Assembly (NCBI RefSeq): GCF_002939305.1
Contig: NZ_MVDI01000001.1
Coordinates: 124,001 to 188,000 of the forward strand
Length of the DNA stretch: 64,000 nucleotides
Source: Chroococcidiopsis sp. TS-821
Lineage (GTDB): Bacteria > Cyanobacteriota > Cyanobacteriia > Cyanobacteriales > Chroococcidiopsidaceae
Direction of reading: 5' to 3'
A program made the position numbers and the translations under genes. Positions 38,762 through 55,638 of the stretch are shown here, in pieces. Position 1 is the first letter of the stretch. Each line of letters begins with the position of its first letter. The notes under the pieces were generated by a model, which searched no databases, had not been told where the DNA came from, and saw only the letters and a list, made by a program, of their open reading frames with translations.

Positions 38762-39460
38762 CTAATGAATTTCTATATTGTGTAGTTGCAATTGTTGTTC
38801 GAGTTTCTCGATGCGTTCGATTAAGGAACGAATAATTTTTGCTTCTACATCAGGGAGTTTTCCGTGATCTAAAGGACAGTCGCGTACTCCTTTATGGCAA
38901 ATATTGCGCCCAGGAACTCCTACAGCAGTGCAATCGGCAGGGACATCGCGTAAAATAATTGAACCTGCACCAATACGAACGCGATCGCCAACTTGAATAT
39001 TCCCCAAGACTTTCGCACCCGCACCGACAACAACGTTTTTACCTAACGTAGGATGGCGTTTACCACTTTCTTTTCCTGTTCCGCCAAGCGTAACACCTTG
39101 ATAAATCAGCGCGTAATCTCCAACGATCGCAGTTTCACCAATCACAACACCCATACCGTGATCGATAAATACACCTTTCCCGATCTGCGCCCCTGGATGA
39201 ATTTCCACTCCTGTCAAAAATCGCCCCAGGTGAGAAATCAAACGGGGAATGAATGCAACTTTACGACAATGCAACCAATGCGCAAAGCGATGTAGTGCGA
39301 TCGCATGAAACCCAGGATAACAACAAAGCACTTCTAACCAATTACGTGCTGCTGGATCGCGTTCAAAAATAATCTGAAAATCTGTCAATAATGGTTGTAA
39401 AAATGATAAGCTAAATTGCTTATCAGTTTTTTGTGCAGTAAAGACGTTGGAGTGTTGCAT
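38762..39460 (-). CDS. nifP: Serine O-acetyltransferase, nif-associated (NifP/CysE)
   Basis: 232 residues: an N-terminal helical domain, then the left-handed hexapeptide helix with [24 protein letters not shown] and [19 protein letters not shown]. It makes O-acetylserine, and so cysteine for Fe-S and FeMo-co synthesis. First gene of the minus-strand nif operon. In diazotrophic cyanobacteria this gene divergent from nifB is called nifP. The promoter with a TGATATAA box lies 33 bp upstream. Confidence 0.92.
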
Positions 39461-39492
39461 CGGAGTAGATGACTGAATCTGTGTACTATCTG

Positions 39493-39735
39493 CTTATATC
39501 AGGCAACTCTAACGACACTCATACCGCCAATGTTTGTTGGATTTATTGAATTGATTAAATGTGTACTCAATTCTTCTAAACTACGATATTAATTACAATT
39601 TACAACTTGAAAAAACTTTTTTCAGGATAGGGTACTAGTATTTTTCAACTCAGGGTACTAGCATTTATTCAGAAGGGAGCGAGTATTTATGTACTCACGC
39701 CTAAACTTTTATTCTGTAAGGACTTCCAAGTATTT
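39493..39735 (-). promoter_or_regulatory. nifP promoter: phased AATACT array, 18-bp element and extended -10
   Basis: Read toward nifP (minus strand): AATACT-type motifs have their AGTATT complements starting at 39728, 39681, 39659 (AGCATT) and 39636, spaced 47, 22 and 23 bp. The two inner ones carry CCCT downstream. TTTAATCAATTCAATAAA follows at 39558-39541, then CCTGATATAA at 39502-39493, an extended -10 (TG-A-TATAA). There is no good -35 box, as expected for an activator-dependent promoter. The nifB side repeats the whole layout with matching spacing. CnfR is the known activator of such promoters in non-heterocystous cyanobacteria; binding here is inferred. Confidence 0.68.
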
Positions 39736-39987
39736 TTATGGTAGTTCCTTAGCTATATTAATTTGTACTCGTTTGCCCTCACATAGCAATTTTATAAAAA
39801 ATATTTCTGTATATCAAAGTACAGTTTATTATTTTATTTTTCAAGTTCGCATAGGCGAACTACGTTTATGAAGTAGCAACTTCTGTCGCCTAACTTTAAC
39901 CCCCTCTAAATAATTAAAATAAAATTAAGTTAGCTATTTCAGCAAAAAAGTGATATTTTAGATACAGAATTGAATTTCGCTAAGCAA

Positions 39988-40016
39988 CTGGGGTAGTTCT
40001 TAGTTAGCTACTCCAG
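39988..40016. repeat. Imperfect inverted repeat in the middle of the nifP-nifB region
   Basis: CTGGGGTAG (39988-39996) and CTACTCCAG (40008-40016) form a nine-pair stem with one mismatch and an 11-nt loop; AA/TT flanks extend it. A second perfect palindrome, GTTCGC-ATAG-GCGAAC, lies at 39845-39860. Function unknown; they lie between the two promoter arrays. Confidence 0.55.
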
Positions 40017-40155
40017 TTCTTATCTCTCAAAAGCTCAAGTACTACACAACTTTGGGCAACTATTTAACGTAATTTGAGTACAGAATAGAAAAACTCAAAA
40101 AACACCTTAAATTACTTCAAACCTTTACTAGGATACAGTTCAAGGCGAGTACAGA

Positions 40156-40348
40156 AATACTTGAACCCCTTCATCATAAATACTCGTCCCCTGTCAAAAA
40201 AATACTAGCACCCCTACCCAAAAACTTTTTTCAGAAGCTACTCAAACTTCGATTGCTCTACGCTTCAGTTTTTGAGTGCAAGTTTAATCAATTCAATAAA
40301 TTCTATCCTAAACACTTGCACCATTCGCTCTCGAGACACCTGATATAA
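40156..40348 (+). promoter_or_regulatory. nifB promoter: phased AATACT array, 18-bp element and extended -10
   Basis: AATACT starts at 40156, 40179 and 40201 (spacing 23 and 22 bp), each followed by a C-rich tract (CCCC or GCACCCC). TTTAATCAATTCAATAAA lies at 40283-40300 and CCTGATATAA at 40339-40348. From the last AATACT to the 18-bp element is 77 bp; from that element to the -10 element is 38 bp of intervening DNA. The nifP side gives almost the same distances. The predicted start near 40355 gives a leader of about 250 nt. Divergent, activator-dependent control shared with nifP is inferred. Confidence 0.68.
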
Positions 40349-40606
40349 AACACATATCGCTAAACACCTAATGCACTAACAAAAAGCTTAGTAGGTAATC
40401 AAAGGTCGAAGCGATAAACGGTTAAAGATGCGACAGTACCCCTCCTACTCTTAAAGGAAACGAAGTCGCAGTTGTCAGCACACTCACCCAAAAGGGTTAC
40501 ATAACCAGCGCAGGCAGGTTCAGCAAAGACAACGCCATTTTAATTCTTTTTGATGTACTAGAGTATCTTCTCAAATACTAGCCCTCAACCTTAGTAGCGA
40601 AATTCA
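40349..40606 (+). promoter_or_regulatory. Long nifB leader with hairpins
   Basis: About 250 nt separate the predicted start from the nifB ATG. TGCGAC (40429-40434) pairs with GTCGCA (40465-40470), enclosing CCCCTCCTACTC and AAAGGAAAC. ACCC-AAAA-GGGT forms a small hairpin at 40486-40497. There is no open reading frame. No known riboswitch consensus (cobalamin, glutamine, Moco) recognised. Confidence 0.4.
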
Positions 40607-49106: not shown

Positions 49107-49493
49107 TTAGCGTTTCATTAACCAAGGCGAAGGGTTAGCAATCATACTTACTAAACCACCTAAAATTTGGTTGTAGATTCCATATATTTCTCTACCTGAT
49201 TCAATGTTTAGATAGTTGCACTTAACAGCAAATTCAATCCAAGTTTGAGTTTCTGCTGCTTCAGCCTCACAATCATTGAGTTTAGCGACAAATGCTGCTT
49301 CATAGCGACGCTTTCTCCAAGCCTCTGCGAGATTTGCACAAACAGAGCGTGACGAACGACGAATCTGATCGGTTAATGAATAACGCTCTTCAACGGGAAA
49401 CTTTTTAGAAAATTCAAAGATTTGCATGGCAGCATCGAATGCCATTTGATAAACCTTCAAGTCTTTATGGCTTTTAATTGGCTCCTTCTCCAT
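49107..49493 (-). CDS. S23-type four-helix-bundle protein
   Basis: 128 residues with the S23/IVP signature: [25 protein letters not shown], then [22 protein letters not shown] and the Glu-rich ECEAE-type helix (here [16 protein letters not shown]). Such proteins were first seen in 23S rRNA intervening sequences and also occur as stand-alone mobile-like genes. It runs against the nif operon and splits nifK from nifE. Its ribosome-binding site is part of the adjacent GCAGAGGGG repeat, which ends at the start codon. Confidence 0.88.
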
Positions 49494-49522
49494 CCCCTCT
49501 GCCCCTCTGCCCCTCTGCTGAC
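49494..49522. repeat. CCCCTCTGC repeats, right flank of the S23 gene
   Basis: Three CCCTCTGCC units touch the S23 start codon (minus strand GCAGAGGGG repeated). Inverted relative to the left flank at 49045-49099. Confidence 0.8.
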
Positions 49523-49565
49523 TTCACCTGAGTTTCCAACACTACACAATATCACCCGTCGAGTC

Positions 49566-52304
49566 ATGAAAATCACCCAAGGCAAAATTAACGAACTGCT
49601 CAGCGAGCCAGGTTGCGAGCACAATCACCACAAGCACGGGCAAAAGAAAAATAAGTCTTGTCAACAACAAGCACAGCCAGGGGCGGCTCAAGGAGGTTGT
49701 GCTTTTGATGGAGCATCGATCGCTCTTGTCCCGATTACTGATGCAGCGCATTTAGTCCACGGACCGATCGCTTGTGCGGGAAACTCTTGGGGAAGTCGTG
49801 GTAGTCTCTCGTCTGGTTCTCAGCTCTACAAAATGGGTTTTACGACTGACTTGAGTGAGAACGATATCATTTTCGGCGGCGAGAAAAAGCTGTACAATGC
49901 CATTTTAGAAGTGCAGCGACGCTATCAACCTGCGGCAGTGTTTGTGTACTCTACCTGCGTTACAGCCTTGATTGGCGATGATTTAAACGCAGTCTGTGAA
50001 GCCGCTGCTCAGAAAACAGGTATACCTGTGATTCCTGTCAATTCTCCAGGGTTTATTGGCAGTAAAAATCTGGGCAATCGCGTGGGTGGGGAAGCTTTAC
50101 TCGAATATGTTATTGGCAGCGCTGAACCGGAATATACAACTCCTTATGACATCAACCTAATTGGCGAGTACAACATCGCCGGAGAATTGTGGGGAGTTTT
50201 ACCCTTACTCGAAAAAGTCGGGATTCGCGTTCTTGCCAAGATTACAGGTGATGCCAAATACAACGAAGTTTGCTATGCTCACCGCGCCAAGCTGAATGTG
50301 ATGATCTGCTCCAAAGCCCTAATTAATGTGGCAAGAAAGATGGAGGAAAATTACGGCATTCCGTATATCGAAGAATCTTTCTATGGCGTAGATGATATGA
50401 ATCGCTGTTTGCGAAATATTGCAGCAAAACTGGGCGATGCTACGATTAATTCGCGAGTAGAACAATTAATTGCTGAAGAAACCGCAGCTTTAGATATTGC
50501 TTTAGCTCCCTATCGCGCTCGACTCAAAGGTAAGCGTGTTGTCCTTTATACCGGAGGCGTGAAAAGTTGGTCAATTATTTCTGCGGCTAAAGACTTGGGG
50601 ATGGAAGTCGTCGCCACTAGCACGAAAAAAAGCACCGAGGAAGACAAAGCCCGCATTAAAGAGTTACTCGGTAAAGATGGCATCATGCTTGAAAAAGGCA
50701 ATGCCCAAGAACTTCTGCGGACGATCGCCCACACCAAAGCCGATATGTTAATCGCTGGCGGTCGCAATCAATACACCGCACTCAAAGCTCGTATCCCGTT
50801 TTTAGATATCAATCAAGAACGCCACCATCCTTACGCCGGATATGTAGGCATGATTGAAATGGCACGAGAACTCGATGAAGCCCTTTATAGCCCTGTTTGG
50901 GCACAAATACGTAAATCTGCACCTTGGGAAGAGGAAGCAGAGGAGCAGGGGAGCAGAGGCGCAGAGGGGCAGGGGAGCAATGACCAATTACCTGTTACCA
51001 ACTACCAATCCAAAGTCCAAAATTCTAAAAAATCAGTTGCGGTTAACCCTTTAAAACAAAGCCAACCTTTGGGTGCAGCCCTAGCATTTCTAGGATTAAA
51101 AGGCGTGATGCCGCTGTTTCATGGTTCTCAAGGGTGTACTGCTTTCGCCAAAGTGATGTTAGTGCGGCATTTTCGCGAAGCGATTCCCCTATCAACTACA
51201 GCAATGACTGAAGTGAGCACAATCTTGGGTGGTGAGGACAACATTGAACAAGCAATTCTTACGCTAATGGAGAAATCAAAGCCAGAAATTCTTGGTTTGT
51301 GTACGACTGGACTTACAGAAACTAGAGGTGATGATATGGAGGGTATCCTCAGAAGTATCCGCAACCGTCACCCTGAATTATACGATTTACCAATTGTCTT
51401 TGCGGCTACGCCTGATTTTAAAGGTGCATTGCAAGATGGTTTTGCCGCCGCGATTGAAAGTATTGTTAAAGAGTTGCCGCAGCCTGGAGAAATTAAGTTA
51501 GACCAAATCAACGTTTTAGCGAGTTCGGCGTTTACTCCAGGGGATATACACGAGATTAAAGAGATCGTGTCTGCGTTTGGACTAAAGCCGATTGTTGTAC
51601 CGGATTTATCTACCTCACTTGACGGTCACTTGGATGATTCTTACAGTGCAGTGACAGGTGGTGGAACAACTTTGGCAGAACTACGACAAATGGGTAGTTC
51701 GGTGTTTACCCTTGCACTCGGTGAAAGCATGCGTGGTGCAGCAGAAAGCTTGCAAAAACAGTTTGGCATACCTTATGAGGTGTTTGGGCAACTAACAGGA
51801 TTAGCCGCAGTCGATGACTTTTTGCAAGGATTAATCGATCTCAGTGGTAATTCAGTACCAGAAAAGTACTGTCACCAACGCCGCCAGCTGCAAGATGCGA
51901 TGCTTGATACTCACTTTTACTTCGGGCGCAAGCGAGTATCGTTAGCCCTTGAACCCGATTTACTGTGGTCGATATCTTGGTTTTTGCAGTCGATGGGTGC
52001 TGAAATTCACGCGGCTGTGACAACGACAAAATCACCGCTTTTAGAGCAACTTCCTGTTGAAAGCGTCACAGTTGGCGATTTGGAAGATTTTGAGCAACTT
52101 GCAGTCGGTTCTGACTTGTTGATTGCGAATTCTCATGGAAAAGCGATCGCCCATCGTTTGCATACTCCTTTCTATCGCCTTGGTTTTCCTATCTTTGATC
52201 GATTAGGTAACGGACAGCGTTGTACTGTCGGCTATCGAGGAACTATGCAACTGTTGTTTGATATCGGCAACTTGTTTTTGGAAGTAGAAGAAGCAAGGGA
52301 GTAG
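49566..52304 (+). CDS. nifEN: Fused FeMo-co scaffold NifE-NifN
   Basis: 912 residues in one frame from the ATG of [20 protein letters not shown]; the frame is open 48 codons further upstream but that part covers the S23 start and repeats. Residues 1-455 are NifE ([51 protein letters not shown]). About 489-912 are NifN ([39 protein letters not shown]). The linker, about residues 456-488, is Glu/Gly/Ser-rich and is translated repeat DNA. The C-terminal EEARE and stop also lie in repeat DNA. NifEN finishes FeMo-co on its alpha2-beta2 scaffold. Confidence 0.95.
50929..51030. repeat. Repeat cassette translated as the NifE-NifN linker
   Basis: In order: GGAAGCAGAGGAGCAGGGG units (50929-50981), ACCAATTACCTGTTACCAACTACC (50982-51007) and TCCAAAGTCCAAAATTC (from about 51009). 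This is the same order seen in intergenic DNA, such as after nifEN. Its in-frame reading keeps nifE and nifN in one polypeptide. Confidence 0.85.
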
Positions 52305-55332: not shown

Positions 55333-55638
55333 ATGACAATGACAACTTATCAAGTTCATTTAATTAATAAAAAGCGATCGCTTGACGTCACAATTCCTGT
55401 TGACGAAAATACCACGATTCTTGATGCAGCAGAAAACGAAGGACTCGATTTACCTTTTTCCTGTCATTCTGGTTCTTGTTCGAGTTGCGTCGGTAAAGTT
55501 GTTGAAGGTGACATCGATCAATCGGATCAAGTATTTCTGGATGAGGATCAAGTTGCTAAAGGCTTTGTACTTCTTTGTGTCGCTTATCCCCGTTCTGATT
55601 GTACGATTCGCACGCATCAGGAGGCTTATTTAGTTTAA
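55333..55638 (+). CDS. fdxH: FdxH, plant-type [2Fe-2S] ferredoxin for nitrogenase
   Basis: 101 residues (99 if the second ATG is used). Cluster motif [16 protein letters not shown] plus the fourth Cys in FVLLCVAYP. Heterocyst-type ferredoxin FdxH is the main electron donor to NifH; it also occurs in diazotrophs without heterocysts. Lys/Arg at [11 protein letters not shown] matches the donor-specific surface. Confidence 0.94.

Follow-up and report, generated by a model that had tools for sequence, protein, structure and literature searches.

How does a single intergenic region switch on two sets of nif genes that face away from each other? The question arises in the 64,000-nucleotide stretch of Chroococcidiopsis sp. 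TS-821 DNA analysed here (the window), where nifP and nifB lie head to head with 1146 bp between them. CnfR, an oxygen-sensitive activator, is the master switch of cyanobacterial nitrogenase genes and a tool in efforts to transfer nitrogen fixation to plants. From the sequence we predict, with considerable confidence, that the region holds two divergent CnfR-dependent nif promoters, built from the same parts at nearly the same distances. The locus contains the following.

39461-40606: nifP–nifB intergenic region, 1146 bp
38762..39460, minus strand: nifP (serine O-acetyltransferase), the left promoter's target; TIGR01172 cysE, 249 bits
40607..42040, plus strand: nifB, which opens the right nif cluster; TIGR01290, 675.9 bits at G000:C1:164706-166007

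Beyond nifP, its strand also carries dpsA and nifV. In the right part of the window, nifE and nifN form a single fused reading frame of 960 aa (49422-52304, plus strand; NF011047, 1503 bits). Rfam matches across the window are two tRNAs only, and a reading of the region as an RNA element was dropped. The DIF1 motif TCCGGA, another candidate, has 0 occurrences in the intergenic region.

The sequence-only reading had described two outward-facing copies of one promoter layout, and that description is borne out. The 18-mer TTTAATCAATTCAATAAA lies at 39542-39559 on the minus strand and at 40283-40300 on the plus strand, each time with CCTGATATAA downstream and with a gap of exactly 38 bp between the two, as had been claimed for both sides. 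Throughout the 5.23-Mb genome the 18-mer occurs once forward and once reverse, both at the nif promoters; reversed-pattern controls gave 0. The longest non-self inverted repeat in the 1146-bp region measures 19 bp, compared with a maximum of 15 across 1000 first-order Markov shuffles (self-palindromes left out). Both arms sit directly upstream of nifB or nifP, as in the CnfR-dependent class, and both carry an extended -10 (TGnTATAA) without a -35 hexamer: sought 15-19 bp from the -10, the best match was 2/6 for nifB and 3/6 for nifP. The parts of the two arms, with the site between them, are listed from left to right.

39494..39503, minus strand: extended -10 of the nifP promoter, CCTGATATAA
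39542..39559, minus strand: 18-mer TTTAATCAATTCAATAAA, 3′ part of the proximal element, nifP side
39562..39569, minus strand: TGAGTACA, 5′ part of the proximal element, nifP side, conserved in relatives
39610..39622, minus strand: A/T tract in the array–proximal element interval, nifP side (by eye; similar tracts in relatives, by eye)
39630..39642, minus strand: tandem repeat 3, AATACTAGTACCC, nifP side
39653..39665, minus strand: tandem repeat 2, AATGCTAGTACCC, nifP side
39675..39687, minus strand: tandem repeat 1, AATACTCGCTCCC, nifP side
39690..39697, minus strand: TGAGTACA, outer edge of the array, nifP side
39809..39822, no strand assigned: NtcA-like GTA-N8-TAC site GTATATCAAAGTAC, mid intergenic region
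40147..40154, plus strand: GAGTACAG, outer edge of the array, nifB side
40156..40169, plus strand: tandem repeat 1, AATACTTGAACCCC, nifB side
40179..40191, plus strand: tandem repeat 2, AATACTCGTCCCC, nifB side
40201..40214, plus strand: tandem repeat 3, AATACTAGCACCCC, nifB side
40220..40231, plus strand: A/T tract in the array–proximal element interval, nifB side (by eye; similar tracts in relatives, by eye)
40273..40280, plus strand: TGAGTGCA, 5′ part of the proximal element, nifB side
40283..40300, plus strand: 18-mer TTTAATCAATTCAATAAA, nifB side
40339..40348, plus strand: extended -10 of the nifB promoter, CCTGATATAA

Each arm reads, from its outer end towards the gene, outer GAGTAC, three repeats, A/T tract, the proximal element (TGAGTRCA, N4, TAAT and onwards, with the 18-mer as its 3′ part) and the extended -10. 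The AATACT motifs noted earlier are present on both arms, but they are really part of a phased array of three tandem AATACTnGnnCCC repeats with a period of 22-23 bp upstream of the proximal element, and one nifP-side repeat has AATGCT in place of AATACT. Between the last AATACT and the 18-mer lie 77 bp on the nifP side, the figure given earlier for both sides, but 76 bp on the nifB side. Nor is the 18-mer a unit that stands alone, as it had been presented: it makes up two thirds, at the 3′ end, of the longer proximal element TGAGTRCA-N4-TAATnAATnnAATAA. Its perfect conservation holds between the two nif arms but not beyond them; positions 1, 2, 7, 11 and 12 are the most variable in a 44-row alignment that joins the two arms of the window to 42 named nifB loci, of which one is doubtful, and in a third promoter copy elsewhere in the genome its counterpart reads TAATTAATTTAATTAA. 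The columns immediately 5′ of the 18-mer (aGTACAA) are conserved in these 44 rows although the selection of rows made no demand on them. In relatives that were selected by pattern, conservation of TGAGTRCA, TAAT and TGnTATAA is circular because the pattern requires them; conservation of TGAGTACA is also seen in the 44-row set, where the pattern made no such demand. An AGTAC core is shared between the array repeats (ctAGTACc) and the proximal element (tgAGTACa). The outer GAGTNC was found in 65/73 promoters with three scored repeats, in 6/49 with two, in 0/21 with one and in 1/2 with four, and its frequent absence beside fewer scored repeats would be expected if the scoring overlooked the outermost repeat.

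We evaluated conservation in two sets of sequences, which overlap and hence are not independent. The first comprised 56 named cyanobacterial nifB loci, reduced to 55 when one without upstream sequence (L093) was dropped. An 18-mer-like site with a downstream TATAA was present in 42/55 (one of them, L066, doubtful), while 12 loci failed and one (L083) was too short. A composite pattern, TGAGTRCAN{2,4}TAATN{50,62}TGNTATAA, located upstream of nifB, rescues 8 of the 12, with L079, L084, L086 and L087 failing both searches; on either strand the composite pattern matches 41/55 loci, and in 215 kb of proteobacterial sequence, from 24 nifB loci, it has 0 matches. When the intergenic DNA itself was used as query against 60 relatives, 12 matched at E <= 0.001. 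Both arms are kept in the four relatives that have the nifP–nifB region itself (L004, L005, L006, L007); a genome of the same genus (G002) gave no match to this query.

The second set comprised 388 Cyanobacteriia genomes, of which 134 are nifB-positive (match at E below 1e-60). The composite pattern matches 110/388 genomes and its reversed control once (by reading of the control columns). All but two of the 110 (108/110) are nifB-positive, and the exceptions, G168 and G246, have CnfR matches; 26 nifB-positive genomes lack the pattern and 252 have neither. The association between pattern and nifB has a Fisher p of 9e-68, a value uncorrected for phylogeny in which related genomes overstate independence. 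A first, strict pattern, blind to lineages whose element is 1 bp shorter, had matched 81/388 genomes, with a TGnTATAA-type match in 60, all 60 nifB-positive (by reading); 17 of the other 21 were 1.6-1.7-Mb genomes of one genus and were taken as chance. Pooling the composite and strict TGn matches gives 112 genomes, 110 of them nifB-positive, and leaves 24 nifB-positive genomes with neither. Upstream DNA was examined for 40 of the 74 nifB-positive genomes without a TGn match: TGnTATAA lies 38-41 bp after the best-scoring site in 35/40, many of these scores from a gapless weight matrix being low or negative, and the strict composite is present on the nifB side in 26/40. In two of the five misses (L212, L215) the nifB side does match the composite pattern, and three still fail (L187, L204, L217), although in L204 a site resembling the element lies on the opposite strand (by eye). 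Among the eight read of the 24 pattern-free nifB-positive genomes, three (G208, G233, G376) have no nifB-side element. In five of the 24 (G027, G055, G422, G045, G051) the nifB match is unusual and spans only model positions 9-285; a separate match to model positions ~307-438 lies ~11-12 kb off in G027, G055, G422 and G051 and is adjacent in G045.

The data support a pair of outward-facing promoters with an element spacing that relatives preserve, and several conserved upstream cis elements are common to other diazotrophic cyanobacteria. Loss of the element and its spacing in relatives had been set in advance as grounds for refutation; the element survived this test.

Its geometry was quantified in 150 unique promoters, deduplicated on the 100 bases upstream of TGAGT. 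The distance from TGAGT to TGnTATAA is confined to 65-69 bp (65 bp in 1 promoter, 66 in 22, 67 in 42, 68 in 78 and 69 in 7). The array is positioned differently. The nearest repeat starts 59-63 bp before TGAGT in 81 promoters and 69-74 bp before it in 59, with 0 at 64-68 bp; of the other 10, five lie at 36, 37, 104, 104 and 106 bp and five are without a repeat above threshold. The two distance modes are one helical turn apart, and the repeats themselves have a period of 21-23 bp in 187/200 intervals. After clustering at 60% ungapped identity, the two modes hold 47 and 20 of 76 clusters, and a Rayleigh test at a 10.5-bp period gives p ~4e-21 (67 clusters, 50-80 bp), although any narrow concentration of distances inflates this statistic and clusters are not independent lineages. 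Better evidence is the empty gap at 64-68 bp together with the presence of both modes within one genome, the array distances in Chroococcidiopsis being 71 bp for nifB, 72 bp for nifP and 61 bp for the cox copy described below. Because the array is found at two distances one turn apart and at none between, a same-face requirement on its sites is probable; to judge from these positions, the array and the proximal sites probably must share one face of the helix.

Which protein would read this layout? The genome's own cnfR (G000:C1:205476-207068) lies 17.5 kb outside the window and encodes 530 aa with an N-terminal 4Fe-4S domain (Fer4) and a C-terminal HTH_3 domain, in keeping with the 4Fe-4S and XRE HTH architecture of CnfR. 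Divergent from it is a further promoter with the full layout.

G000:C1:204753-204827, minus strand: third full promoter copy (L218), 16.8 kb beyond the right-hand end of the window

This copy precedes a gene for a hydrophobic protein of 110 aa, along with coxB, coxA, coxC and three small genes, and its transcription start would fall just 3′ of its TGATATAA. A CnfR-like match is present in all 110 of the 110 composite-positive genomes. Such matches total 189/388 genomes, many of them partial, and 57 of these are without nifB at the E < 1e-60 cut; among nifB-positive genomes, CnfR was not found in two (G051, G062). The earlier proposal that CnfR acts through these motifs is strengthened by this co-occurrence, by the position of cnfR opposite the third copy and by passages in the literature, and on these three grounds the link is very probably correct.

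Elsewhere in the class the layout stands before other genes, which are predicted regulon targets. It precedes nifP-like frames in twelve loci (L150-L160, L162; by eye) and, in two (L161, L224; by eye), a small frame with a nifV-like frame behind it. A ParB-like gene with a cnfR-like gene on either side bears it in L219, L220 (L220:3577-4491) and L227; Pfam identified the ParB_N and HTH_ParB domains in L220, while L219 and L227 were judged by eye. In L219, L220, L222 and L225 it is followed by frames of 168-169 and 203-208 aa, of which L221 shows just the second. In family f33 it precedes a small-gene operon (L143-L149, L223, L226), situated 9-15 kb from cnfR in eight genomes (G407, G154, G382, G417, G387, G419, G373, G231) and not at that distance in three (G337, G145, G260). 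The operon proteins at L226:12047-13936 measure 141, 88, 103 and 127 aa and have no Pfam match; small genes resembling this operon also flank coxBAC on both sides in the Chroococcidiopsis genome (by eye). A tandem-repeat pattern run on that genome matched nine places (reversed control, 2), two of them being the nifB array, and failed to pick up the nifP and cox arrays. One match, at 55525-55553 on the minus strand inside a ferredoxin-like frame (55333-55638, by eye), was taken as chance. A literature search, with most subscription journals out of reach, returned no report of helical phasing or of cox2 or ParB-like targets.

We propose the following mechanism. When conditions are micro-oxic and poor in nitrogen, CnfR, an Fe-S activator, would most likely occupy the three tandem AATACTnGnnCCC sites, the flanking GAGTAC perhaps forming part of its contact. 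It would act together with a protein on the proximal TGAGTACA-N4-TAATnAATnnAATAA site, either CnfR itself or a partner, and RNA polymerase would thereby be recruited to an extended -10 that has no -35. The proximal site is nearly fixed relative to the -10, and the array sits at either of two distances one turn apart. Sequence, spacing, conservation and co-occurrence with nifB and CnfR are observed, whereas binding, the oxygen response, looping and start sites at ~39486 (nifP) and ~40356 (nifB) are all inferred parts of this scheme. A more elaborate version, in which a three-site CnfR array and a second-factor proximal site on the same face form a helically phased enhanceosome, serving a wider anti-oxygen regulon with coxBAC beside cnfR and, in some lineages, the ParB-like gene, is speculative, and we think it improbable as a whole.

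In the closest competitor of this mechanism, CnfR binds the array only and the proximal element is the site of a second protein, or a contact for a sigma factor or alpha-CTD. The proximal element is unlike the array in sequence and keeps its 65-69 bp from the -10 whereas the array can shift by one turn, both of which suit such a division of labour. Yet the AGTAC core in both elements fits one binding protein, and no second cyanobacterial nif activator is known to us. The published evidence also points both ways: passages of PMC4284476 suggest a separate specificity for promoter-near sequences, whereas according to passages of PMC5943405 adding cnfR sufficed in Synechocystis, a host that could itself supply a housekeeping partner. 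We consider this division between two proteins unlikely.

Two other explanations fare far worse. If the arms were alike through recent duplication or gene conversion and not through selection, the identity of the 18-mer (18/18) and of CCTGATATAA (10/10) would be accounted for, but the 38-bp spacers between them agree at only 13/38 positions, and the same geometry recurs in other letters before nifB, nifP-like, nifV-like, cox and further genes across many families. A recent copying of one arm onto its counterpart is rejected because the spacers differ and the layout is conserved across the class, which leaves it scarcely credible; the sequence-only reading had likewise taken the differing surroundings as a sign of selection. 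Direct activation of both promoters by NtcA could appeal to the single GTA-N8-TAC site at 39809-39822 and to a GTA-N8-TAC between the elements in 3/4 relatives examined. That site, however, is mid-region, a long way from either -10 box and not within the conserved module, and passages of PMC4284476 argue against direct NtcA control of nifB. NtcA as direct activator is rejected on account of the site's place outside the module, and we regard it as very unlikely; NtcA may help indirectly. CnfR-dependent activation of both arms is the reading we carry forward.

A precise class-wide picture of the promoter, consisting of the array, the proximal element, its nearly fixed distance to the -10 and the one-turn rule, would make the regulon predictable from sequence, and it suggests that respiration (coxBAC) is regulated together with nitrogen fixation. 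The same geometry would allow the meeting of activator and polymerase to be probed by simple changes of spacing.

We now compare the pair with the CnfR-dependent nifB and nifP promoters that are together covered by passages of PMC8510180, PMC4284476, PMC7699953, PMC6428710 and PMC5943405. According to passages of PMC5943405, nifB and nifP of Leptolyngbya boryana are transcribed divergently once CnfR activates them, a 484-bp fragment of the nifB promoter contains the conserved motifs I to IX that CnfR recognises, and addition of cnfR sufficed for Nif proteins to be made from a transplanted L. boryana cluster in the non-diazotrophic Synechocystis. As far as these passages go, the two systems have in common a divergent nifP/nifB pair, one intergenic region, CnfR as activator and conserved motifs; the 18-mer, which the sequence-only reading took to lie outside any described consensus, may or may not fall within motifs I-IX. 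The two-mode spacing and the cox copy found here are not mentioned in those passages.

For Anabaena variabilis, passages of PMC4284476 and PMC8510180 describe nifB1 and nifB2 as CnfR-dependent, with an extended -10 and without a -35, and in passages of PMC4284476 (Fig. 11 legend) both genes are preceded by an extended -10, by the motif TGAGTATA and by one more conserved motif. The extended -10, the missing -35 and the further conserved upstream motifs are thus common to both species on this partial account. The published motif TGAGTATA contrasts with TGAGTACA/TGAGTGCA in Chroococcidiopsis: no TGAGTATA precedes the element on the plus strand in the first 4200 bases of L033-L087, and a literature search pairing TGAGTACA with nifB returned nothing, most subscription journals being out of reach. 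Gene order differs as well, since in the A. variabilis passages nifP lies elsewhere and nifZT2 is divergent from nifB2, whereas in Chroococcidiopsis nifP is divergent from nifB. In A. variabilis, according to passages of PMC8510180, nifB1 transcription falls by ~50% without one conserved upstream site and by 75% without two, and these conserved sites are put 300-600 bp upstream of the start site, compared with ~140-200 bp upstream of the predicted start for the array here; as a guess, the published distances may have been counted from the gene rather than the start site. The Chroococcidiopsis pair very probably belongs to the already known CnfR-dependent promoter class, whose geometry is now resolved more finely.
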